Below are positions 21,701 through 54,189 of a stretch of DNA of 64,000 nucleotides, in pieces; within the stretch, counting starts at the first letter, position 1, and the number at the start of each line of letters is the position of its first letter. The notes under the pieces were generated by a model. The model saw only the letters and a list, made by a program, of their open reading frames with translations, had not been told where the DNA came from and did not search any database. Source of the stretch: Vibrio hyugaensis (GTDB lineage Bacteria; Pseudomonadota; Gammaproteobacteria; Enterobacterales; Vibrionaceae); assembly GCF_002906655.1 (NCBI RefSeq), contig NZ_CP025794.1:496001-560000 (forward strand), given 5' to 3'. A program made the position numbers and the translations under genes.

Positions 21701-21715
21701 TTCTCAAATTGAGTG
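21701..21715 (+). promoter_or_regulatory. SypG-type binding box upstream of sypA
   Basis: TTCTCAAATTGAGTG fits the V. fischeri SypG element TTCTCAnnnTG. Its centre is 78 bp before the first base of the -24 element. A second near-match, TTCTCAATTTAAA, starts at 21724. Confidence 0.75.
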
Positions 21716-21785: not shown

Positions 21786-21801
21786 TGGCATGTTACGTGC
21801 T
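21786..21801 (+). promoter_or_regulatory. sigma54 promoter of sypA
   Basis: TGGCATGTTACGTGCT matches the -24/-12 consensus TGGCACGnnnnTTGCW at the GG and GC positions with exact spacing. It lies 39 bp upstream of the sypA ATG. Confidence 0.8.
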
Positions 21802-21839: not shown

Positions 21840-22160
21840 ATGGAACTGCGAAAACTAGAAACCGATCAAAACACATTGACCATCGAGTTTTTTGGCGATT
21901 TAGACGCGAAAGGCTGCCGTCAAGCTCAACATCATATTGATGAGGTAATTCACAGTGATGATCACAAGGAAGTCGAAATCAACCTCAAACACGTCCAATT
22001 TCTTGATTCTTCAGGGATTGGTGCCATTGTTTATTTATATAAGCGCCTAGTTGAACGTGAACGCAGTATGATAATCGAAAACGTATCGGGACAACCCTTA
22101 GAGATAATGAGTCTGCTACGTATCAATCATGCTATTCCCGTGAATTCAAAGGGCCACTAA
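21840..22160 (+). CDS. sypA: STAS-domain protein SypA (anti-sigma-factor-antagonist type)
   Basis: This is a 106-residue single STAS domain. The phosphorylation-site motif 'FLDSSGIGAIVYL' is intact (Asp56, Ser57, Ser58). In V. fischeri the unphosphorylated form of SypA is needed for biofilm formation, and its serine is switched by the kinase/phosphatase SypE. No SypE homologue is encoded in this locus, so the switch must be controlled from elsewhere or work differently. GGAG precedes the ATG, and a sigma54 promoter plus SypG box lie upstream. It is the first gene of the sypABCD-hpt unit. Confidence 0.9.
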   Translation: MELRKLETDQNTLTIEFFGDLDAKGCRQAQHHIDEVIHSDDHKEVEINLKHVQFLDSSGIGAIVYLYKRLVERERSMIIENVSGQPLEIMSLLRINHAIPVNSKGH

Positions 22161-22186: not shown

Positions 22187-23035
22187 ATGGTGAATCTAAT
22201 ACGACAAAGTGTAATGAGCAGTCTCGTTGTCGGCGTTGTTGGTTGCTCAACGTTTAACTACCCCGAGCATGGTCAGGGTGGCATGGCAGAAAGCTACCAA
22301 GATATTTCTATTGAGAATTATCAGTTTTCACCCGTTATGCCTGATGAGCCTCTTGGTCCGGAACATGGTCTTCGCTTCGATTGGCAGCTTACTAAACTGC
22401 ATTTGGACGCATTGATTAAGGAAGGGGCAAGATGGTGTTTCCCTGCAGCAGTCGTTCAGGCATTGGAAAAACAAAACCGAATTGCACGTGAACTCGAAGG
22501 CGGGCTGTTGCTTGATGCCGCTAACGATATTGTGATTCAGCGTCGTCGATTGAGCCAACTAGAACAACAACTTGATTACGTACTTTCTCAAACCACGTGT
22601 ACGCCACCGCAAGATATTGAAGCACTGCGCAGCGATTTAAGTATTGTCGCAAACGTCTATGATCTCCTTAACATTGATAATCAGTTTGCCGTCAATTCCG
22701 CAGAAATCAATCCAAAGTACATGGGGCACCTAGCAGAAGCGGCCTATATTCTGCGAGAGCACCCTTCTCTCTCCCTTGTTGTCACCGGCCATGCCGACGT
22801 TACTGGCGAACCTGAATACAACCAAAAACTGGCGCAAGAGCGTGCTGAGCAAGTGAAACGATACCTCAATGTATTTGGTATCACCTCAGACCGGGTCCAG
22901 ACCAAATCCGTGGGCGAAACGCTCCCCCTCTACGAAGGACAAACGCCAGCGGTCCGCCTAACCAACCGACGAGTAAGCATTGAAGTACTTAATTCAAATT
23001 CAGACAGCACGACTGACATGGGAGAGATGTTATGA
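22187..23035 (+). CDS. sypB: OmpA-domain lipoprotein SypB
   Basis: The 282-residue product has a lipoprotein signal with lipobox 'VVGC' (Cys20). The middle part is helical, and a C-terminal OmpA peptidoglycan-binding domain (about 165-275) carries 'LVVTGHADVTGEPEYNQKLA' and 'ERAEQVKRYL'. It is probably lipid-anchored in the outer membrane and holds or positions the export machinery of the polysaccharide. GGAGG lies eight bases before the ATG. Its stop overlaps the sypC start (ATGA), so translation is coupled. Confidence 0.9.
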   Translation: MVNLIRQSVMSSLVVGVVGCSTFNYPEHGQGGMAESYQDISIENYQFSPVMPDEPLGPEHGLRFDWQLTKLHLDALIKEGARWCFPAAVVQALEKQNRIARELEGGLLLDAANDIVIQRRRLSQLEQQLDYVLSQTTCTPPQDIEALRSDLSIVANVYDLLNIDNQFAVNSAEINPKYMGHLAEAAYILREHPSLSLVVTGHADVTGEPEYNQKLAQERAEQVKRYLNVFGITSDRVQTKSVGETLPLYEGQTPAVRLTNRRVSIEVLNSNSDSTTDMGEML

Positions 23036-25131
23036 GAATACTCAAATCTGTTGTCACCCTTTTCTTGTTCTGTCTAATCAACATCAACGTGAGTTGGGCT
23101 GCTGAAGACGAAGTCGTCAAAGTGGGCGATTTAGTTCAAATCAACCTGCCTGGTGAAGCCTCTCTAAACAAAGGGTTCCAAGTTGATAAACGTGGCCGTA
23201 TTAGTCTGCCTGAAATCGGGCCTGTGTTTGTTGCTGGGTACAATGAAGAGCAGCTCCAAAGCGTTATTATCGATAATCTTAAATCCGTTTATCGAGACGT
23301 CAATAATGCTCGCGTGTTCATCAAGCAGCAGCAATTGCTTATTTCCGTTCAAGGTTATGTGGTCAAGCCTGGCGAGTACACATTGCAAGCCGGTTCTAAT
23401 ATACAGATGTTTCTCTACGAAGCCGGTGGACTGCGTGCTGGTGCGCAATTAGATAAAATCATCGTCAAACGTGGCAACAAGAACATCGAATTTGACTACA
23501 AACGCTTTCTCGATACCGGTGATGACACCCAGTTACCGCAGCTCGAATCTCTGGATGTTCTCTTCGTCCCTGCTTCACCGCTCGTTGGCAACATCGAACA
23601 AGAGTTTGATGCAGCTAAACTGGCGAACTCTGGCGACAGCGCTGATGCTTCCAAAGCAATCAAAGTGTTTGGAGAGGTAAACGCGCCGGGTTCATTTACT
23701 TACAAACCTAATACAACGCTTGTCGATGTCGTCATGCGAGCTGGAGGTGTCACTCGCTACGCTAGCGTCGAACAAATCCGTGTGATCACAAATAACACGC
23801 CTAGCCTGTTCAATTTGAAACGTTATTTAGATACGGGCGACCAAAGCCTGTTACCTGAGATTTTGCCTGGAGCAACCATCTTTGTTCCTAAGCAAGAGGA
23901 GGAAATAAAAGCGGGTTCAAACGTCGTTTATGTGATGGGCGAAGTGGATAACCCTGGCGCTTTCGAAGGCAAGAAAGGCGCGACATTTATGGACATTTTA
24001 GCTAACGCAGGTGGCCCAACTCGCTACGCAGAGTCACGTCAGATTCGAGTTCTTAAGGCGAACGGCCAAGTCATCAAGTTTGATTTAACGGCGCATACCG
24101 AAGGGCTAACATCAATAAAGCCGCCGAAAATTGAATCTGGTGACGCAATATTCGTCCCTGAAAAGACGGACATGAATGAAAAATCATGGCTCAAAGTGGC
24201 TCCAAACCGTGCCGTTGCCGTTATGGGTGAGGTTGTTCGTCCTGGACGTATCGAATGGTCAGATGAAATGGACTTGATTGACTTACTGGCTCATGTAGGA
24301 GGCCCAACTCGTCGAGCGGACACCAGTAAAATTGAGGTAGCAAACAACGGGAAAATGGCGAAGTTTGACCTAGACAAGTTCATCTTAGATGGTTCACCAA
24401 ATTCAAAGCTTCCAAATGTGAGTGCGGGTACGGTGGTCAGGGTTCATGCATTGCCCGATGACCCGTCGGACAACAAATCACAATGGGTGAGTCAGAGCTC
24501 AGATGCCTCTATCTATGTCTTTGGTCAAATCAACTCTCCTGGTCGCTATCGTTTTACCAACGAGATGCACTTCCTTGATATTCTTTCTGCGGCGGACGGT
24601 CCAACCAAAGACGCCGATATTCATAATATTCGGGTGACGCATCGTGGCCTTGGTTACGCCAAAGTCAGTAAACTGAATCTTTCGATGTATTTTGAAACCG
24701 GCGACGAAAACATCCTACCGAATGTTCGACCGGGCGATACCATCTACATACCTGAAAAGAACAAGAACTGGCTCGACCGCTCGAAAGAATCTACAGTGCG
24801 AGTTCTGGGTGAAGTAAGAGACCCCGGGCGTTACGTCTTCAATGACAATATGACTATCCTCGATTTACTGGCTGAAGCCGGAGGCCCGAGTGACAACGCT
24901 TACGTAGAGAAAATTAGCGTGGTCAATATGTCTTGTTGCCAAGGGCAAGCCCGTACCTTCGACTTAACTGAATTCAGTAAAACCGCCAACATTTACGACC
25001 TTCCGGTTATTCGAGCCGGCGACACTATCTATATTCCACACAAAGATGAAAGTTTTGCGGAGAAAGCGCGAGCTGGTTTGCGAGACCTTCTGCAAATCAC
25101 CACCACCATTGTGTTAATAGGAGCGCTGTAA
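23032..25131 (+). CDS. sypC: polysaccharide export protein SypC (poly-SLBB)
   Basis: This 699-residue envelope protein has a signal peptide ('FLFCLININVSWAAE'), then a polysaccharide-export domain ('VGDLVQINLPGEASLNKGFQ'). About six SLBB repeats follow, each of the form 'VxGEVxxPGxF...LLxxAGGPTxxA', near residues 100, 215, 305, 395, 485 and 580. The C-terminus has a final hydrophobic stretch ('LLQITTTIVLIGAL') that may span the outer membrane. It would be the outer-membrane exit route for the Syp polysaccharide, like Wza but longer. Its stop overlaps the sypD ATG (TAATG). Confidence 0.93.
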   Translation: MRILKSVVTLFLFCLININVSWAAEDEVVKVGDLVQINLPGEASLNKGFQVDKRGRISLPEIGPVFVAGYNEEQLQSVIIDNLKSVYRDVNNARVFIKQQQLLISVQGYVVKPGEYTLQAGSNIQMFLYEAGGLRAGAQLDKIIVKRGNKNIEFDYKRFLDTGDDTQLPQLESLDVLFVPASPLVGNIEQEFDAAKLANSGDSADASKAIKVFGEVNAPGSFTYKPNTTLVDVVMRAGGVTRYASVEQIRVITNNTPSLFNLKRYLDTGDQSLLPEILPGATIFVPKQEEEIKAGSNVVYVMGEVDNPGAFEGKKGATFMDILANAGGPTRYAESRQIRVLKANGQVIKFDLTAHTEGLTSIKPPKIESGDAIFVPEKTDMNEKSWLKVAPNRAVAVMGEVVRPGRIEWSDEMDLIDLLAHVGGPTRRADTSKIEVANNGKMAKFDLDKFILDGSPNSKLPNVSAGTVVRVHALPDDPSDNKSQWVSQSSDASIYVFGQINSPGRYRFTNEMHFLDILSAADGPTKDADIHNIRVTHRGLGYAKVSKLNLSMYFETGDENILPNVRPGDTIYIPEKNKNWLDRSKESTVRVLGEVRDPGRYVFNDNMTILDLLAEAGGPSDNAYVEKISVVNMSCCQGQARTFDLTEFSKTANIYDLPVIRAGDTIYIPHKDESFAEKARAGLRDLLQITTTIVLIGAL

Positions 25132-25817
25132 TGACTATTCCTGCGACTCATGCTGAAATCGAGCAAATTTACTTATTGGGCGAATTAAAAGGCCACCGAT
25201 CTTTGTGCGTCGTCGCTTGTCAATCAGAAGACGGGGTGACATCCGTGGCTTCAGCACTCGCTGAACGCTTGATTCTCGCAGGACATAACACGTTGTACGT
25301 GGATTTGAACTTGTTTAAACCTGCGTACAATACCGTGCATCAATTCTCTAGCCAAGAAGGCGTCGGGCAACTCATCGCGAGAGAAGAAGATCATCAAACG
25401 TTAGTGGGCTTAACCGTCCCTTCAATGGCGAGCACACAACTCGCGTATCGTGACCCAACCATGCTCAAAAAAGCCATAGACGATTGGTTAGAACAATACG
25501 ACCGTGTCGTCATCGATACCTCCCCCTTGTTGAGCTTAAATCGAAATAATATTCCTGCTCAAGTTGTCGCAGGCGTCTGTGATGCCAGTATATTAATAGC
25601 CAGTTATGGATCGACTACCACCACACAGATTGACCAAGCCAAAAAACTACTGGAGAGCAGTAACGCGAACCTACTCGGCGCTGTGCTGAACATGAAACAC
25701 AATGCTGGTTTAAAAGACGAATTGCTTCGTCAGGTAAAAAAAATGCGCTTTATGCCAGAAAAGCTAAAAGCAAAAATATCAGAACAAATTAGAAACAGTG
25801 AGTTATTTACATTATAG
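25131..25817 (+). CDS. sypD: SypD, CpsD/Wzc-like P-loop protein with degenerate Walker A
   Basis: The 228 residues match the cytoplasmic ATPase half of polysaccharide co-polymerases (CpsD/CapB/Wzc C-terminal domain). The A' and B motifs are recognisable: 'LYVDLNLFKPAYN' and 'YDRVVIDTSPLLS'. The Walker A position reads 'ACQSEDGVTSVASALA': the usual Gly-Lys-Ser/Thr is Gly-Val-Thr, so the ATP-binding lysine is missing. There is also no C-terminal tyrosine cluster. It is therefore unlikely to be an active BY-kinase and may act structurally with the Wzz-like SypO. It is coupled to sypC by overlap. Confidence 0.85.
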   Translation: MTIPATHAEIEQIYLLGELKGHRSLCVVACQSEDGVTSVASALAERLILAGHNTLYVDLNLFKPAYNTVHQFSSQEGVGQLIAREEDHQTLVGLTVPSMASTQLAYRDPTMLKKAIDDWLEQYDRVVIDTSPLLSLNRNNIPAQVVAGVCDASILIASYGSTTTTQIDQAKKLLESSNANLLGAVLNMKHNAGLKDELLRQVKKMRFMPEKLKAKISEQIRNSELFTL

Positions 25818-25829
25818 GGAGCGCATCCA

Positions 25830-26213
25830 ATGAGCAATTACACAAACGTGGCCATAGAGCCGGAACTGGTCGACGAATTGATTCTTCAGCAAATGATCAA
25901 AGATACGTGCGCCGAGATAATGCCCACGCTCATTGAGCACTACATTGAAGAATCTCGCGAACGTGTAGAAAAGATCAAGCAAGCCTTAGAGACCAGCAAT
26001 ATCGATACCCTGGAGTTTGAGGTGCACACACTAGGCAGCTCCGCTCTAGCACTTGGAAATCGTCCCCTTTCTCGGCATGCACGAACCATAGAGAAACACT
26101 GTGTTGAAGGTGAAACTCAACAAGCCCTACTTCTATGCCAATCATTACCAGAACTCGCCGAAAATTCATTTGTTGCTTTGAATCAGAGAAAAGAACAAGG
26201 ATTTGAGGATTAG
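25830..26213 (+). CDS. stand-alone histidine phosphotransfer (Hpt) protein in the syp locus
   Basis: This 127-residue, mostly helical protein has an Hpt motif at residues 65-80, 'VHTLGSSALALGNRPLSRHA', with probable phospho-acceptor His66 and the downstream 'LGNRPL' typical of the family. The usual Lys at His+3 is Gly. There is no receiver, kinase or membrane segment. It sits exactly where V. fischeri has sypE and the hybrid kinase sypF, whose Hpt domain alone is known to be enough for biofilm control there. It should relay phosphate from an unlinked hybrid kinase to SypG. GGGAG precedes the ATG; the gene is 13 bases after sypD. Confidence 0.85.
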   Translation: MSNYTNVAIEPELVDELILQQMIKDTCAEIMPTLIEHYIEESRERVEKIKQALETSNIDTLEFEVHTLGSSALALGNRPLSRHARTIEKHCVEGETQQALLLCQSLPELAENSFVALNQRKEQGFED

Positions 26214-26327
26214 CGTGTATACGCAAATGACTTCAACATACTTGGATATATTGAGTTATTTAATTAGCTAAAAAATAAAGAATTTTCTGCAAGACTCCCA
26301 ACCTGTGCTAATACTTAAATATAAAGA

Positions 26328-26342
26328 TTCTCAAAATGAGAA
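26328..26342. promoter_or_regulatory. perfectly palindromic SypG-type box upstream of sypG
   Basis: TTCTCAAAATGAGAA reads as a SypG box on both strands. Unlike the other boxes, no TGGCA-N-GC promoter is visible 65-85 bp downstream or up to the sypG ATG. A long-spaced inverted repeat TATCTGCT/AGCAGATA flanks part of the leader (about 26355-26411). Confidence 0.55.
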
Positions 26343-26489
26343 TAGAAAAGAAGCTATCTGCTTGAGAGTACGACAACTATTCATTCTCACGAACTGACTC
26401 CCCAGCAGATAACGCATCGTTAGAGCAAAGACAGCGTTAGAACTGATTCTACGTTAGAACAGAAAACGAATAAAAGTTGGGAAAGGACT

Positions 26490-28016
26490 ATGAGACCAAG
26501 GGTGTTATTGGTAGAGGACTCTACCTCACTAGCCATACTTTACAAACAGTATGTCAAGGACGAGCCTTACGACATCTTTCACGTTGAAACTGGGCGTGAG
26601 GCAATCCAATTCATTGAGAGAAGCAAACCACAACTTATAATTCTTGATTTAAAATTGCCTGACATGTCCGGGGAAGACGTGCTGGATTGGATCAATGAAA
26701 ACGAAATCCCAACATCAGTGATCATCGCGACCGCACACGGTAGCGTTGATATTGCCGTCGGCTTGATTCAAAAAGGCGCAGAAGACTTCCTTGAAAAGCC
26801 CATCAACGCAGACCGACTAAAAACTTCCGTTGCGCTCCATCTCAAGCGTGCCAAGTTAGAGAACCTGGTCGAGAACATTCAATCCACCTTCGACCGACAC
26901 AATTACCACGGATTCATCGGTTCTAGTCTACCGATGCAAGCCGTTTACAAAACCATTGATGCTGTTGCTTCAACGACTGCGAGCGTATTTATCGTTGGCG
27001 AAAGTGGTACGGGTAAAGAAGTCTGTGCCGAAGCGATACATCGTCAAAGTGATCGTCGCAACAAACCTTTTATTGCCATTAACTGTGGCGCAATTCCTCG
27101 AGACTTAATGGAGAGCGAAATTTTTGGTCACGTCAAAGGGGCGTTTACCGGTGCGACGACTGACCGTAAAGGTGCAGCCACCGTTGCTCATGGTGGCACG
27201 CTCTTCCTCGACGAACTGTGTGAAATGGAATTGGAGATGCAGAAAAAACTGCTGCGCTTCCTACAAACTGGCACATACACGCCGCTCGGTGCAACTAAAG
27301 AGATGAAGGTTGATGTTCGCATCATTTGTGCAACTAACCGCGACCCTCTGACCGAAGTGGAAGAAGGCCGCTTCCGAGAAGATTTATACTATCGCGTCCA
27401 TGTTGTGCCAATCGATATGCCTCCGCTTAGAGAACGAGGTAGTGACATTGTCACGCTCGCTAAGCACTTCCTGACCGTTTACTCCAAGCAGGACAAGAAG
27501 AAGTTCAACAATATCGACAACGAAGCGCAGTACGTGATTAAACATTACGATTGGCCAGGCAACGTCCGCCAATTACAAAACATCATTCGTAACATCGTGG
27601 TGTTGAATAATGAAGACAAAGTGACCTTGGCCCACTTACCAGCTCAATTGACTCGTAAGCCATCAAAAGCCCGCACAGTAGCTCAACCCGTGGAATTAAC
27701 CCCTGCAATTGTATCTGAGCCATCGCCAACACAATCCATTGAAAACATCGCTACCGAAATGCCGATGCAAGAATCCGTCATCGTACCAGAGCCAGTTCCG
27801 ATGAGTGCGTCTGCACAAGTGGCTTCACCGTACTTTAATTCGGACGGTACGATTCGCCCAATGTGGAAAGTGGAACGCGAAGCGATACAAAATGCGATTG
27901 CCTACTGTGACGGCAACGTACTTAACGCCGCAGTGATGTTAGAGCTGAGCCCTTCTACGGTTTACCGTAAAAAACAAGCGTGGGAAGCAGATGAGGCTAA
28001 TCTCGAACAATCATGA
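26490..28016 (+). CDS. sypG: sigma54-dependent response regulator SypG
   Basis: This 508-residue NtrC-type regulator is the direct activator of syp promoters in V. fischeri. The receiver domain has phospho-acceptor Asp53 in 'LIILDLKLPDMSGED'. The AAA+ domain has Walker A 'GESGTGKEV' near 170 and 'GAFTGA' near 217. A long Pro/Ala/Glu-rich linker (about 390-455) leads to the C-terminal Fis-type helix-turn-helix ('NVLNAAVMLELSPSTVYRKK'). The domain plan is LuxO-like. GGGAAAGGA lies before the ATG. The ORF overlaps the sypH start by 26 bases, so the two are co-translated. Confidence 0.93.
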   Translation: MRPRVLLVEDSTSLAILYKQYVKDEPYDIFHVETGREAIQFIERSKPQLIILDLKLPDMSGEDVLDWINENEIPTSVIIATAHGSVDIAVGLIQKGAEDFLEKPINADRLKTSVALHLKRAKLENLVENIQSTFDRHNYHGFIGSSLPMQAVYKTIDAVASTTASVFIVGESGTGKEVCAEAIHRQSDRRNKPFIAINCGAIPRDLMESEIFGHVKGAFTGATTDRKGAATVAHGGTLFLDELCEMELEMQKKLLRFLQTGTYTPLGATKEMKVDVRIICATNRDPLTEVEEGRFREDLYYRVHVVPIDMPPLRERGSDIVTLAKHFLTVYSKQDKKKFNNIDNEAQYVIKHYDWPGNVRQLQNIIRNIVVLNNEDKVTLAHLPAQLTRKPSKARTVAQPVELTPAIVSEPSPTQSIENIATEMPMQESVIVPEPVPMSASAQVASPYFNSDGTIRPMWKVEREAIQNAIAYCDGNVLNAAVMLELSPSTVYRKKQAWEADEANLEQS

Positions 28017-29064
28017 TATACCCATCGCGGGCGAGGTTTGGATTCTACTCGACAGCCGCATCTTTGGCGGCATAGAAAGTCACGTCCTTGAGCTCGCCAG
28101 AGGATTACAGGCGTTCCATGTGTACGTTAGAGTGGTGTTGGTGGTTGAATACCATCCACCTGCGCCGCTTATTTCGAAGTTGAGTCATTCCGATATTCCT
28201 GTTAGCTACTTACATCAGCTTTGCCCCAAAGGTAACGACTCACATTCATCCATTGCCGTAAAACAAATCACAAGTGCTGTCGCGGAACATCAACCTAGCG
28301 TCATTCATACTCACGGTTACAAAGCCGCGTTACTTGCCCGTAGCGCGGAGCTGTTTACGCGGACCTTCCCTCGCCTTATATCGACCTACCACGCAGGAGA
28401 AACTCCGACCGGAATAGTTTGGCTTTACGATTGGCTTGATCGTTACAGTGGCCGTCTATCGGACCATTGCTTTGCGGTCAGCCAAAGTATTCAGAACAAG
28501 CTGCCCATCAAAGCAGAACTATTGAATAACTTTGTATCGCTTCCAGAACTTAACAGCAACTACAAAGAAATCGCGTTTGTGGGTCGATTGAGCCATGAAA
28601 AGGGCGCGGATCGCTTTATCGACATAGCAAAGCATTTACCTGACCGCCAGTTCTCGATTTATGGCGACGGTCCAGAAAGAGAAACACTTTCCCAACAAGC
28701 ACCAAAAAATGTCGTGTTTCATGGTCATCAAAGCAATATGAACGAGGTATGGAACAATATCGGCGTATTGATCATATCTTCTCGTTATGAAGGCCTTCCA
28801 ATGGCAGCATTAGAGGCAATGTCGCGTGGAATTGTCGTATTTACCCTAAACGTTGGCCGTATGTCAGACCTTATCGAGGACGGCAACAATGGGTTTATTG
28901 CTCAAGACATTCTCAATTTGATAGAAAAGCTCAACCATTGGATAACCATGAGCGTCTATACTCAATCTCTTATTCGCAAAAAGGCCATTAAGACCATCTC
29001 TGAGCAATATTCTTCGCAAAGCGTCATTCCTATTTTGATTGAACGCTATCAAATTGAGAGTTAA
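27991..29064 (+). CDS. sypH: GT4-type glycosyltransferase SypH
   Basis: The 357-residue GT-B glycosyltransferase is soluble or peripheral at the inner membrane. The N-domain shows 'IFGGIESHVLELARGL', and the C-domain 'IAFVGRLSHEKGADRFI' and 'SSRYEGLPMAALEAMSRG', the GT4 EX7E nucleotide-sugar-binding region. It adds one sugar to the lipid-linked Syp repeat unit; the sugar is unknown. The start codon lies within the end of sypG (26-base overlap), preceded by GGGAAG. Confidence 0.88.
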   Translation: MRLISNNHDIPIAGEVWILLDSRIFGGIESHVLELARGLQAFHVYVRVVLVVEYHPPAPLISKLSHSDIPVSYLHQLCPKGNDSHSSIAVKQITSAVAEHQPSVIHTHGYKAALLARSAELFTRTFPRLISTYHAGETPTGIVWLYDWLDRYSGRLSDHCFAVSQSIQNKLPIKAELLNNFVSLPELNSNYKEIAFVGRLSHEKGADRFIDIAKHLPDRQFSIYGDGPERETLSQQAPKNVVFHGHQSNMNEVWNNIGVLIISSRYEGLPMAALEAMSRGIVVFTLNVGRMSDLIEDGNNGFIAQDILNLIEKLNHWITMSVYTQSLIRKKAIKTISEQYSSQSVIPILIERYQIES

Positions 29065-29080
29065 TCTTGATGCATATGCA

Positions 29081-29095
29081 TTCTCATTATGATAA
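29081..29095 (+). promoter_or_regulatory. SypG-type box upstream of sypI
   Basis: TTCTCATTATGATAA fits TTCTCAnnnTG. Its centre is 79 bp before the first base of the -24 element, the same spacing as at sypA and sypP. Confidence 0.8.
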
Positions 29096-29166: not shown

Positions 29167-29182
29167 TGGCATCTCGGTTGCA
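29167..29182 (+). promoter_or_regulatory. sigma54 promoter of the sypIJKL unit
   Basis: TGGCATCTCGGTTGCA is a near-perfect -24/-12 element (TGGCA and TTGCA with correct spacing), 40 bp upstream of the sypI start. Confidence 0.88.
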
Positions 29183-37148: not shown

Positions 37149-37163
37149 ATCTCAAATTGAGAA
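37149..37163. promoter_or_regulatory. SypG-type box upstream of sypP
   Basis: ATCTCAAATTGAGAA fits TTCTCAnnnTG on the minus strand and nearly so on the plus strand. It shares the core CTCAAATTGAG with the sypA box. The centre is 79 bp from the -24 element. Confidence 0.8.
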
Positions 37164-37234: not shown

Positions 37235-37250
37235 TGGCACGTACCGTGCA
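37235..37250 (+). promoter_or_regulatory. sigma54 promoter of the sypPQR unit
   Basis: TGGCACGTACCGTGCA matches the -24/-12 consensus at all key bases, 37 bp upstream of the sypP ATG. Confidence 0.88.
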
Positions 37251-49437: not shown

Positions 49438-52400
49438 GTGGCTAGATCGCTTTCATGGAATAACCTATCTGTAAAACATAAGCTGTTTTGCTTAGTTTTC
49501 TTACCCATCGTTTTATTGCTCTTTCTCGCGGGACAGCAAGTAGCTAGGCTCTCTACTCAGGCTCACGATCTTGAAAAAGCACATTTGTTCTCTAACTACA
49601 TGGATCAGGTATCGTATCTCTACAATCTGCCCAATAATCCTGATGTGACCGATAAAGCGGTAATGATCAAGACCACGACTGAGACACTGAATACCAACGC
49701 CAGTCGTATTTTTGCCGACAAAGGGGTTGAGATGGCTGACTTATTGACCAGCCTTGAAGAAGCGAGCATATCTTTAGCCACCAACACCGATATGGACGAA
49801 CGTTTAGATTTGTCTGAATGGCGTGCTGACACCTATAAACAGATTCTTTTGGCTTTAGAGAAAGTTCCTTTTAACAATGCCACGTTTGAAATTCAAAACC
49901 ATCTGTCTGCCTTAATGCAAATCGAGTGGTTAATGTTCTGGTCGAAAGAAGAAAACCGCTTAAGCCAATATCTGATTTATTCTGTAGAGCAAAACCAGTA
50001 TTACGACACAGACATCGGTAGCGAGATCGAATCCCTCGTTAAGAACCAACAGCTGTTTCTAGAACGCTTTGTAACGCTGAACGCCAATCAACAACAAGTT
50101 GAGTTATTGATTGAGACCTTTACGAATGACGTGTTTGTTCTGAGCCAGGAATTTCGCACTTACCTACTCAACCAAGAAGAACTCAGTTCTCTTGCTTCAC
50201 AAGAGGTTTCCGCGGGTTTAACCGCGCTCAATGGTCGCCTTGAACTGTTGCAAAGCGTCGATAACAAAATGACAGTTCAACTCAATGCGGACGTTGATCA
50301 TGCAATCTCCATTGCTAATCAACAGCGATTACTGTTCATTGGTGTGATGTCGTTAATCACCATCTTAGTCATCAGCTTAGCAATACGCTTGGTGCGTAAA
50401 GTGACAGGTAACCTAAACCTTGTGCTCGAGTTCTTACGTCGCGACAGCTACAGCGAAGAGTCACCACTTAAAGAATTGGTCAAAGGCAAAGACGAATTAA
50501 GCAAATTCGCCCAAGAAGTAGAACGATTGAGCTACGAGCGTGAACAAGCGAAAGTGAAGCTGACTCAAGCCAAAGAAGATGCCGAACGCGCCAAAGACGA
50601 TGCGATTAAGGCCAGCAAAGCGAAGAGTAGTTTTTTGGCCAACATGTCGCATGAAATACGCACGCCACTAAATGGAGTTATCGGTATCTCAGAAGTCCTT
50701 TCCGACACGTCATTAACCGCCACTCAACGTGATTACGTCGACACCATCGAGACCTCTTCTCAGTTACTATTGAGTCTGATTAACGACATTTTGGATTTCT
50801 CTAAGATTGAATCAGGCATGCTGCTGATCAGCCCACATTCAACTTGCGTGCGTGAATCCATTTATGACATTGCCTCTATTGTATCTCCCAAAGCCAAAGA
50901 GAAAGGCATCGACCTTCAAGTAAGTATTAGCCGTAATACCCCTTTCCGCTTGATGATTGATGATCACCGTTTGCGCCAAGTAATAATGAATTTTATGTCG
51001 AATGCAGTGAAGTTCACTGAGAGTGGCACAGTCTGTCTGTCTGTTTCGACTCATTCAGTATCGGGTTCTAGTGCCGTGATGGAGTTCTCGGTGCAAGATT
51101 CAGGCATCGGCATCGATGAACAACAACAGAAGAAGATTTTCGAACCCTTCGCTCAAGAAGACGACTCCACTACGCGTCAATTTGGTGGCACTGGGCTTGG
51201 CTTGGCGATCAGTACTCAACTTGTCGAACTGATGGGTGGCAAAATTCAACTAGAGTCTGAAAAAGGTCAAGGCAGCCGATTCTTTTTCCAACTGACGACG
51301 CCTATTGTACAACTCGACTTTGACTCAAAACGCTTAACCCATAACAGCCAAATTTGGTTGGTGTGTGACGATACGGATATGGAAAGCACCCTGCGTGATG
51401 AACTCAATTTCTATCGTATTGCGATGCATCAATCCGTGACGTCATTGGACGGTTTACCAACGTGGATTAACGAAAAAGAACAAATAGTCGTGATTTATGC
51501 GGAGACACGCCCGAATGCAGCCAAAGCCAATGAAGACACTTTCTACAAACTGGAAACGCAGAATGTACGCGTGTGCTTAGTGAAACATTTACACAGTGAC
51601 CAATTTGATTTCGGCCAAACCGTAAGCGCCATGATTACCCAGCCGCTCCTTGGTCAACGCTTGGTGAAAGCATTGGAGAGTTGTGAAGCGAAGTGCAGTC
51701 AAAAAGCCCAGCAAGTCGTAACCAATGTCGCTAACAGCAAGAGCAAAATCCTGGTGGTTGATGACAATACCGTAAATCAAAAAATTGCCGGCCTACACGT
51801 GACTAAAGCAGGCTTCCCTTTCGATTTAGCAGCAAACGGTGCAGAAGCCGTTGAAATGTTCAAAAAGAACCAATATGCCTTGATCTTAATGGATTGCATG
51901 ATGCCAGTGATGGACGGTTTTGAAGCAACAGAGAAAATTCGCCAAGTAGAACAAGAGGAAAATCGTCGCTACCGCATCCCTATTATTGCCTTGACTGCAA
52001 GCGTAGTGGATGACGATATTCAGAAGTGTTTTGATGTCGGCATGGACGATTACGTTCCTAAACCATTCAAAGCCAATGTTTTGAAAGAAAAATTGGCAAA
52101 AGCAGTCGATGTCCCCGTGGGTGGTGATGCCGTTAACAACATTAACCCGATGTCTGTCAGCCATGTCGACAACCATCAAGCCACCGCTCTAAAAGAAGAG
52201 CCCGCCCTCAATACCATACCGAATCGCTCTGAGCGTATCCTTTTGGTTGAGGATAATACCGTCAACCAAAAAGTTGCATCATTATTACTGAGTAAAGCCG
52301 GTTACGAGTTCGAGATTGCTGAAAACGGCCAAATTGCCCTTAATATGTTCCAACAAGATAATGGATTCGACATCATTTTGATGGATTGCATGATGCCGGT

Positions 52401-52599
52401 GATGGATGGCTTCCAAGCAACCAAAGAAATCCGCGCGTATGAAAGAAGCTCAGGCCTACCGAAAACCCCAATCATTGCCTTAACTGCAAGTGTCGTAGAT
52501 GACGATATTCAACGCTGCTACGACTCTGGTATGGATGCCTACGTGCCAAAACCGGTGCGAAAAGAGAAGCTTCTTCATCAAATTGAAAGTGTGATTTAA
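49438..52599 (+). CDS. hybrid sensor histidine kinase with two receiver domains
   Basis: This 1053-residue protein has TM1 near 15-33, a helical periplasmic sensor of about 250 residues, TM2 near 297-318 ('[19 protein letters not shown]'), a HAMP/coiled-coil linker, and dimerisation motif '[15 protein letters not shown]' with phospho-acceptor His405. The ATPase domain has '[13 protein letters not shown]' and '[11 protein letters not shown]'. Two closely similar receivers follow (phospho-acceptors near Asp819 and Asp983), both with the sequence '[12 protein letters not shown]'. No Hpt domain is present, so it needs a separate phosphotransfer protein. The start is GTG at 49438. It leads an operon with a periplasmic binding protein and a barrel. 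Confidence 0.92.
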
Positions 52600-52610: not shown

Positions 52611-53096
52611 ATGGATATGCATACCCATTTCTTGATTTCCAAAAGCAGCGTGGTGAGAGGGTTTACTACCGCACTGATTGCCTTCGCATTACTCATGTCA
52701 TTCGATAGCGAAGCACTGGCCGCGGATCAATACGCGATATTCTCACTCAATTCAGAGTTTAGTGAGTTAAACATTACTAAGGCAAGAAAGCTCTATCGGG
52801 GCAAGACAAAACGCTTGCAAGGTAAACGTATTGAGCTGTCAGACTGGCCGGATACCTCTTCCGAACGCTCTGAATTTTATCGCTATTTACTGAACAAAAA
52901 CGTGGCTCAAATGAATGCCCATTGGGCTAGCTTGTCTTTCTCAGGTAAAGCTCGCCCTCCTAAGGTCATCGACAGTTCGGACATGAATGCCCTACTGGAA
53001 TGGATGAAAGAAAAACCCAATCGCATAGGTTATGCGCCAGTGAACAGTTTGCCTTCTAATGCTCAGATCCTCTACGTAGTCAGTTCGGAGAAATAA
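52611..53096 (+). CDS. PstS-like small periplasmic binding-domain protein
   Basis: This is a 161-residue exported protein with a signal peptide ('TTALIAFALLMSFDSEALAAD'-type region cleaved near residue 38). The mature part corresponds to half of a phosphate-binding-protein-like fold: 'LNITKARKLYRGKTKRLQGK', 'SSERSEFYRYLLNK' and 'KPNRIGYAPV'. It is too short to be a full ABC receptor and has no permease nearby. Placed 12 bases after a hybrid kinase gene, it may be a ligand-presenting partner of the kinase sensor. The start could be the ATG at 52611 or 52617. Confidence 0.75.
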   Translation: MDMHTHFLISKSSVVRGFTTALIAFALLMSFDSEALAADQYAIFSLNSEFSELNITKARKLYRGKTKRLQGKRIELSDWPDTSSERSEFYRYLLNKNVAQMNAHWASLSFSGKARPPKVIDSSDMNALLEWMKEKPNRIGYAPVNSLPSNAQILYVVSSEK

Positions 53097-53097
53097 T

Positions 53098-54189
53098 ATG
53101 AAGAAATCACTCATCGCAATTGCACTTAGCGGTCTGGCTTTTCCGAGCTTCGCAACCATAGAAATCACTGATAACTTGTCGCTCAGCGGCTTTGGTTCAA
53201 CCTCTTGGGCAACATCAGATAATGAGACGCCACTGCTGGTAAACCGGTTTATCGATGATGAAAACTGTTACGACTGTGACACCACTTTTGGCGTTCAACT
53301 CGACTTTTTTTACGATGCCTTTAAAGCCTCAGCGCAAGTGGTAAAACGACCACAGGATCACTGGAGTGAGCCTCAATTAGAATGGGCGTATTTAGCTTAC
53401 ACCTACGGTAACTTTGAGTTCCGAGGCGGCCGTTTGAGAATGCCTGTGTTTCTCGCTTCTGAATACTATTATGTGGGGCATGCGTTTACCCCAGCTCGCC
53501 CACCAAATGAGGTTTACGACAGTATATTAGGCATCACTGCATACAATGGTTTATCCGTGCTTTGGAACTACGATCTGAACGACAGCATGACCCTAACCAC
53601 CATACCTTTCATCGGTTTTAAAGATAAGAGCACTGTAGACTTTAACGCCAACACCGAACTAACATTTGAGACTAGCGAGATGTTTGGTGTGAACTTAATA
53701 TTGAGTGGTGATTACTACCGTTGGAACTTCACTTACTTGGACTCCAATTACGACCAAGAAACCAAGCTGACCAATTTAACCACCAACATCCCAGGAATGG
53801 GCGTCGTGCTGATTCCCGACCAAACCATTAAAACAAAAGACCAAAGCATCCAGTTATTCTCGTTAGGTGCAGAATATGAGTTTGATGCCCTAACCCTAAC
53901 CGTTGAAGGTCAAACTAACGACATTGCTTCTGCTTGGTACGTTCAAGGAGAATACAATCTTAATCGGTTCACACCTTACGCAGTCTACGGTCAACAATTT
54001 GATGACCACGAGCATCGAGTCGGTGACAGTTACCTGTTTGGGGTGAGGTACGATATACATTACAACGTATCACTCAATGCAGAATGGCAACACTTCAAGG
54101 CTTATCGCAACGCCTCTGGCGCGTTTGTTTCCACCCCATCTGATGACGACGCCAATCTGTATACCATCATGGTTAACTTCGTTTTCTAG
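53098..54189 (+). CDS. outer-membrane beta-barrel (porin-like) protein
   Basis: This 363-residue protein has a clear signal peptide ending 'LAFPSFA' (cleavage near 19), then many amphipathic strands rich in Tyr/Trp/Phe. It ends in 'YTIMVNFVF' with the terminal Phe typical of Omp85-assembled barrels. The start also has a Cys pair ('ENCYDCDT'). It resembles the porin-like proteins that follow PstS-like genes in Vibrio sensory operons. Substrate is unknown. It follows the binding-protein gene by one base, so the three genes form one operon, ended by a strong hairpin. Confidence 0.85.
   Translation: MKKSLIAIALSGLAFPSFATIEITDNLSLSGFGSTSWATSDNETPLLVNRFIDDENCYDCDTTFGVQLDFFYDAFKASAQVVKRPQDHWSEPQLEWAYLAYTYGNFEFRGGRLRMPVFLASEYYYVGHAFTPARPPNEVYDSILGITAYNGLSVLWNYDLNDSMTLTTIPFIGFKDKSTVDFNANTELTFETSEMFGVNLILSGDYYRWNFTYLDSNYDQETKLTNLTTNIPGMGVVLIPDQTIKTKDQSIQLFSLGAEYEFDALTLTVEGQTNDIASAWYVQGEYNLNRFTPYAVYGQQFDDHEHRVGDSYLFGVRYDIHYNVSLNAEWQHFKAYRNASGAFVSTPSDDDANLYTIMVNFVF

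Follow-up and report, generated by a model that had tools for sequence, protein, structure and literature searches.

How does a phosphate signal reach SypG, the activator of the syp biofilm cluster, in a vibrio whose cluster has no built-in sensor kinase and has kept a small phosphate carrier? The question is raised by a 64,000-nucleotide stretch of Vibrio hyugaensis DNA (NZ_CP025794.1, positions 496,001 to 560,000; hereafter the window, whose first nucleotide is position 1), in which the gene hpt (25830..26213, + strand) encodes a lone histidine phosphotransfer (Hpt) protein of 127 residues. It begins 12 bp past sypD and ends 276 bp short of sypG (26490..28016, +), which encodes a 508-residue receiver-sigma54 activator and is the presumed target of the Hpt. 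These coordinates and the order sypA-B-C-D-hpt-G, as given in the original prediction made from the sequence alone, were confirmed on open reading frames (ORFs). We propose, with a probability of roughly 75%, that hpt is a remnant of the hybrid kinase gene sypF, that its product is fed by one or more unlinked hybrid kinases and that it is the last carrier before SypG. A distant sensor would then trigger biofilm formation.

The hpt product passed the curated cut-off of the Pfam Hpt family (PF01627; 44.0 bits against 24.6) and its residue 66 is histidine, as predicted; His66 and Gly69 are both invariant in 43 of 43 aligned sequences, including that of the window. AlphaFold2 with a 43-sequence alignment returned an all-helical model (predicted local distance difference test score (pLDDT) 90.9, predicted TM-score 0.82; pLDDT 86.9 without an alignment), with helices at residues 16–25, 28–54, 58–74 (which holds His66), 78–92, 96–103 and 106–122. 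Among solved structures Foldseek placed Pseudomonas aeruginosa HptB first (17% identity; TM 0.81 normalised by query, 0.89 by target). No other match fell below an expect value (E) of 0.001, and other Hpts came next in the PDB list; a profile of the hpt family also retrieved LuxU (1y6d, E 1.5e-5). A four-helix fold is thus predicted, in keeping with the claim of an Hpt protein. The gene is under purifying selection, because non-synonymous divergence from V. jasicida, the nearest named relative in our survey (93% in the Hpt protein), is 0.031 against a synonymous divergence of 0.641. With that relative, the genome has the look of a Harveyi-clade Vibrio.

Glycine in place of lysine at His+3 had been singled out as an oddity. 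The residue is indeed Gly69, but it is the family norm, occurring in 113 of 124 Hpts from 120 surveyed loci (53/59 fused to a kinase, 60/65 free), with Ala, Ser, Thr, Cys, Val or Ile in the remainder and Lys in none. The LuxU of the same genome has Lys at His+3 (HALKSS). On this comparison, glycine is a trait of SypF-type Hpts and no defect. By its domains the hpt product is not a SypF, having an Hpt alone and missing HisKA, HATPase_c and receiver parts, nor is it LuxU, which is a separate gene beside luxO; it fits an Hpt domain of the SypF lineage placed before sypG, as judged by its relatives, the locus survey and the Hpt tree.

A SypF or SypE encoded elsewhere in the genome (two contigs, 3.53 and 2.08 Mb) would have changed this picture, and neither was found in complete form, so the claim that only the Hpt remains stands. 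SypE (RsbW-type, receiver and SpoIIE parts) does not occur in the syp locus of the window, and all 53 genome matches to a SypE query ran across its receiver region, none at full length and one (26%) extending into the phosphatase part; the same query detects SypE in other loci. The 81 matches to a SypF query included no second SypF. Its Hpt region was matched at 54% by the window hpt, and three longer kinases, each containing its own Hpt, extended into that region at 31–34%. A 789-residue receiver and Hpt kinase with a SypF-like layout (L216:9640-12009; L and G numbers denote our stretches and genomes) is not SypF: of 59 SypF proteins compared, the best-scoring one matches it at 34.6%, and its Hpt is unrelated, without a significant match to the window Hpt. 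The best match to the SypF query, a 642-residue CHASE5 hybrid kinase (L204:7209-9137, −), was rejected as a relocated SypF: it lacks an Hpt, and it is a paralogue because two genomes with an intact SypF have it too (G179 and G198, at 50% identity) and 20 of 44 genomes match it at E 1e-110. Eleven Hpt matches were found in the genome, three of them short stand-alone frames, namely the window hpt, LuxU beside LuxO (L212:7023-8719) and a third adjoining a receiver gene (L213:5175-5510). V. parahaemolyticus is likewise reported to have three stand-alone Hpts, LuxU, VP1472 and VP2127 (PMC6759604; papers are cited from the accessible parts of their text, except for word counts).

Lone Hpts are not peculiar to this genome. 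Of 247 Vibrionaceae genomes, an even sample of a larger group, 128 gave hpt relatives; we fetched one locus from each of 120, the window locus and the seven weakest (E over 1e-8) of the 127 others being excluded. Typed by BLAST, the space between sypD and sypG held a binding protein and SypF (n = 25), a lone Hpt (n = 24), glycine-betaine-type ATP-binding cassette (ABC) genes and a lone Hpt (n = 24, one with a split sypG), SypE and SypF (n = 18), SypF alone (n = 6), a lone Hpt with a hybrid kinase 5′ of sypA (n = 5), SypF plus a lone Hpt (n = 4), SypE with a short or membrane-anchored Hpt (n = 4), SypE with a split SypF (n = 2), or SypE, a binding protein and SypF (n = 2), and six loci were cut, broken or neighbourless. 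The lone Hpt recurs in vibrio lineages. In a named survey of the best 80 of 103 relatives, 39 loci had a free Hpt without SypF (for example V. jasicida, owensii, harveyi, rotiferianus, diabolicus, sagamiensis, tubiashii, aestuarianus and ordalii, with the ABC genes present in V. splendidus and kin) and 41 had SypF (for example V. coralliilyticus, neptunius and proteolyticus, and with SypE in Aliivibrio fischeri, Grimontia, Enterovibrio and V. penaeicida).

Three variants of the locus are described here in their own right. A phosphonate-type binding protein of family PF12974 (e.g. L045:5809-6627) lies 5′ of SypF in 25 of 31 Vibrio-type loci that have SypF and neither SypE nor a free Hpt, and is likely the ligand partner of the SypF sensor. 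Four loci (L065, L079, L087 and L104) hold a full SypF and binding protein plus a free Hpt behind a glycine-betaine-type ABC operon; either SypF was regained or one form is an old duplicate. In A. sifiae and Aliivibrio sp. 1S175 (L097:7138-7851 and L106:7123-7851), SypE was kept and SypF has shrunk to 237–242 residues; the N-terminus is hydrophobic and the Hpt, at the C-terminus, is apparently anchored in the membrane.

The closest relatives of hpt are the free Hpts of its own clade (70–93%); next, at up to 61%, come the C-terminal domains of SypF proteins encoded in syp loci. A locus tree of SypC, SypD and SypG was built by a quick method (109 rows, being 108 fetched loci and the window; 1412 columns; 12 of the 120 loci, in which SypC, SypD or SypG was unusable, omitted; stars on 69 of the 106 inner branches; long-branch warnings). 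On this tree the free or fused state switches at least 15 times when loci with both forms are counted as free, or 16 times when they are given a state of their own, against a mean of 35.4 and a minimum of 30 changes in 200 label shuffles; collapsing branches below 95 and omitting two split genes left 11 changes. The Hpt tree is poorly resolved (102 rows, 130 columns, 23 near-duplicate or broken loci removed by hand), with free and fused forms intermixed and 13 changes. The commonest start sequences of the SypG receiver are common to free and fused loci.

The clade of the window comprises seven rows, all free, and its sister three fused loci (L045, L069 and L089), within a branch of 100%. In that sister the slot holds the PF12974 binding protein and SypF, without SypE; the lone Hpt therefore took over the slot of both these genes, and loss of SypE probably preceded the reduction of SypF in this lineage. 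The original prediction, that the Hpt replaces sypE and sypF, is thus upheld as to a lone Hpt standing in for SypF, but not in its wording, which takes V. fischeri as the comparison. The genome itself gave no match to the PF12974 protein in a search without a positive control of its own, the same query detecting the gene in other loci.

From these relationships we infer that hpt is the orphaned C-terminal Hpt end of an ancestral SypF. Cutting is the more likely direction of change, over repeated fusion to the same kinase, because fused SypF also occurs in Aliivibrio, Grimontia, Enterovibrio and other gammaproteobacteria. Recruitment of an unrelated free Hpt into the syp locus would find a source in the other stand-alone Hpts of the genome, yet it is highly improbable: hpt is nearer to SypF Hpts than to other Hpts seen and occupies the position of the SypF C-terminus before sypG.

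The relay that we propose would have arisen when the sensor, kinase and receiver parts of SypF were lost together with the adjoining binding-protein gene and the C-terminal Hpt stayed. His66 would be phosphorylated by at least one unlinked hybrid kinase that has a receiver and lacks an Hpt, the Hpt would hand the phosphate to the SypG receiver, and SypG with sigma54 would activate the units of sypA, sypI and sypP and perhaps, within this clade, sypG itself. Its basis is sequence, predicted fold, position, kinship with SypF Hpts, the absence of SypF and SypE, and SypG-type sites. That the relay starts at an unlinked kinase had been predicted and holds in so far as the phosphate should come from a kinase encoded elsewhere, because the window has no kinase gene from sypA through to sypR and the genome no other SypF; one or more kinases may converge on hpt, as the other half of that claim has it. 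HptB is a free Hpt with input from several orphan hybrid kinases, its target being HsbR and no sigma54 activator. The genome studied here has several hybrid kinases without an Hpt too, none of them tied to the window Hpt. LuxU-LuxO is a further parallel, being a stand-alone Hpt adjoining a receiver-sigma54 activator and fed by several hybrid kinases, although LuxU differs in its His+3 lysine.

The SypF Hpt domain of V. fischeri is fed by SypF, RscS and HahK, and by itself it brings back pellicles in a sypF mutant (PMC11841056). The window Hpt resembles that domain in belonging to the HTLGSS-motif family, in its position before sypG and in its presumed target SypG, and differs in having no sensor, kinase or receiver parts and no SypE alongside. 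The recurrent shortening of SypF is nature's version of the laboratory experiment with an Hpt-only SypF.

Several points weigh against this relay. The loci were picked through their Hpt, so the presence of an Hpt in all of them is by construction. Phosphotransfer to and from the Hpt, and its donors, are what we infer. HqsK of V. parahaemolyticus, one expected donor, gave no band on VP1472 in vitro in the accessible text of PMC6759604, and LuxU of V. fischeri can reach SypG, so that the Hpt might not be the sole or main donor (PMC12369376).

Candidate donors in the genome, that is hybrid kinases without an Hpt, include the CHASE5 kinase, a 576-residue kinase, LuxQ, a 940-residue kinase, a Cache-type kinase, an 1128-residue kinase and a 1053-residue kinase in the window; this is a partial list, further such kinases having turned up among the SypF-query matches. 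The 1053-residue kinase (49438..52599, +) has two receivers and lies 9.2 kb past sypR. It has a full-length relative (55%) 4.7 kb 5′ of sypA in A. fischeri emors.2.1 (G024), and in the other Aliivibrio seen a 36–38% relative (865–911 residues) and a receiver-TPR gene lie 5′ of sypA (7/8; 2/2). It does not track SypF loss and was rejected as a dedicated donor, because the Aliivibrio relatives precede sypA whether SypF is intact or cut. Nor is a kinase at the 3′ end of syp the rule, as 20 stretches past the locus (sypR in 15) gave no BLAST match to a kinase or hnoX. Apart from five loci with hnoX-hqsK 5′ of sypA (below), 24 compact free loci showed no SypF-like kinase in the roughly 3 kb 5′ of sypA (one of them, L081, stops short of sypA), a search that weaker kin could escape. 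Orthologues of BinK are listed for Aliivibrio-type species and Moritella (PMC5019070).

One sensor pair is attached to free-Hpt loci by position. Directly 5′ of sypA-B-C-D-hpt-G, the nitric oxide-sensor operon hnoX-hqsK occurs in five Vibrio genomes (L142, L148, L151, L153 and L156; both genes broken in L151, genome G201), and V. ordalii (G098) has a diverged pair (39% and 46% to those of V. hyugaensis) just past its last syp gene (L306:13840-16079), the only 3′ case among the loci seen. All six linked loci have a free Hpt and no SypF. In each of the six genomes the linked gene is the only HqsK match at E 1e-100, which suggests that hqsK was moved and not copied. Attachment of hnoX-hqsK to free-Hpt syp loci, 5′ in one clade and 3′ in V. 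ordalii, is new here. We tentatively suggest, at somewhat less than even odds, that repeated cutting of SypF to its Hpt left an open hub for lineage-specific sensors, to which HnoX-HqsK attached at least twice, giving a nitric oxide-gated syp switch there and possibly, unlinked, in V. hyugaensis. The two attachments suggest nitric oxide, a host signal, as a recurrent syp input.

Whether HnoX-HqsK is also the main donor in V. hyugaensis, HqsK phosphorylating the syp Hpt without nitric oxide and nitric oxide shutting syp off, is a separate matter, and we consider it unlikely. The six linked loci speak for it, as do the 51% identity over full length between the HqsK of V. hyugaensis and the linked HqsK of L142 and the analogous model in V. 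fischeri, where HahK feeds the SypF Hpt and nitric oxide turns syp off. The pair of V. hyugaensis, however, is unlinked to syp (G000:C1:32301-34547), and a close relative with the same free-Hpt locus (G126) has no match to hnoX or hqsK. LuxU is kept in all six linked genomes (34–65% identity), so HqsK may still use it; in the accessible text of PMC6759604, V. parahaemolyticus HqsK phosphorylates LuxU and not VP1472 in vitro. The five genomes with 5′ linkage are, moreover, one clade, and the linkage arose perhaps twice, not six times. LuxU might itself be the working donor to SypG, leaving the syp Hpt as a remnant or phosphate drain. In V. fischeri, LuxU affects SypG-dependent biofilm and carries HahK-driven biofilm without SypF (PMC12369376), and V. 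hyugaensis has luxO-luxU (L212). Purifying selection on hpt and its invariant His66 make this improbable for V. hyugaensis, whose LuxU frame also stops earlier than those of its relatives (98 residues). That luxU (L212:8423-8719) matches over residues 1–94 the frame of G234, which has 120 residues, and diverges in its last residues, from either a shortened LuxU or a sequence error.

A further alternative concerns the target of the Hpt. An unlinked 551-residue receiver-SpoIIE-RsbW-type protein on contig 2 (L206:5171-6826, −) could be a second target, a SypE stand-in acting on Ser57 of SypA, modelled on the HptB-HsbR-HsbA pathway of P. aeruginosa. It is the only clear RsbW-type match in the genome (75 bits), fused to receiver and SpoIIE parts, the other eight reaching at most 31 bits and the one inspected being a NarX-type kinase. 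By reading, no STAS gene is among its listed neighbours, and the genome gave five PF01740 matches, two of which, SypA included, are short stand-alone frames; the fold predicted for the Hpt is nearest that of HptB, and the SypA serine is kept in 55 of 63 loci without SypE. We nevertheless regard it as quite unlikely, since the protein has no direct link to SypA, at E 1e-50 it is matched in 22 of 80 genomes, of which 4, all from the clade of the window, also match its RsbW part, and G175 and G191, of that clade too, match over residues 1–400 only.

The preferred reading, a SypF remnant fed from elsewhere, concerns a type of locus that is already in print. The scv, rbd and syp loci without sypE or sypF (PMC8941931, PMC4517449 and PMC10820411) are of the same type, and the lone hpt goes unnamed in their accessible text; the word Hpt occurs 0 times in PMC8941931 and PMC4517449. 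As far as those accessible texts go, sypE is missing from V. vulnificus and V. parahaemolyticus (PMC4517449), V. parahaemolyticus lacks sypE, F and M, with sypF absent from 38 Vibrio species and present in 24 (PMC8941931), and V. harveyi ORM4 also lacks sypE, F and M, having 15 named syp genes in 16 locus tags (PMC10820411). The unnamed ORM4 tag 640015, between sypD and sypG, would be hpt. VP1472 of V. parahaemolyticus is likewise a stand-alone Hpt which, VP1476 being sypA, should by locus tag lie between sypD and sypG; the paper in which it was purified asked only whether HqsK partners with it, got a negative answer and contains 'syp' 0 times (PMC6759604). A search that covered few subscription papers and no supplements found no publication that ties syp to a lone Hpt or, by position, to hnoX-hqsK. 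The lone Hpt is a true observation of an ordinary protein; what appears to be new is its naming as part of the syp relay, and its evolutionary pattern was unexpected. Naming it as the missing link to SypG where SypF is lacking, as in V. harveyi, V. parahaemolyticus and other vibrios, with a shortlist of donors, makes the relay testable.

The rest of the locus follows the expected order, with sypA (21840..22160, +; a STAS protein with Ser57), sypB (22187..23035, +; OmpA-type), sypC (23032..25131, +; polysaccharide export, SLBB/Poly_export) and sypD (25131..25817, +; AAA-type, AAA_26) before hpt, and sypG, with receiver, sigma54 and HTH_8 parts, overlapping the start of sypH at 27991; sypA to sypG were assigned on ORFs and Pfam. 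After V. parahaemolyticus, where scvA-D form one operon and the remaining scv genes another (PMC8941931), hpt would close the first operon.

Sites resembling the SypG upstream activating motif TTCTCANNNTGMDWN (Ray et al. 2013, as quoted in PMC10162802; searched with M changed to N and the palindrome scored on both strands) occur nine times in the window, against 1.47 expected and 0 of 100 shuffles attaining nine. They comprise one 139 bp 5′ of sypA (TTCTCANNNTGNDW, 21701..21714, +), two 5′ of sypI (29081..29094, +, at 132 bp, and 28910-28923, inside sypH), one 137 bp 5′ of sypP (37150..37163, −), the two strands of a palindrome 162 bp 5′ of sypG (TTCTCAAAATGAGAA, 26328..26342) and three elsewhere (21045, 38896 and 57789). 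Sites resembling the sigma54 −24/−12 element are not enriched in themselves (40 found, 39.7 expected) and count only through a spacing to the SypG motifs, noticed post hoc, of 85 bp before sypA (21786..21801, +, two mismatches), 86 bp before sypI (29167-29182, one mismatch, from the motif at 29081) and 85 bp before sypP (37235-37250, one mismatch). The sigma54-site search of the window found none downstream of the sypG palindrome. Among the named loci, 62 of 73 have the motif before sypA and 9 of 77 have it before sypG, against 0 of 284 control windows inside sypC; all nine sypG cases fall in compact free-Hpt loci (9/20, vs 0/57 others). Six of the eight nearest named loci (L218-L225) have the motif upstream of sypG, four as the full palindrome, and sypG self-activation may be a feature of this clade. 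Past the 1053-residue kinase, at 52611-54189, a small periplasmic substrate-binding-like protein and a porin-like protein, recognised by reading, are perhaps a sensing unit of that kinase.

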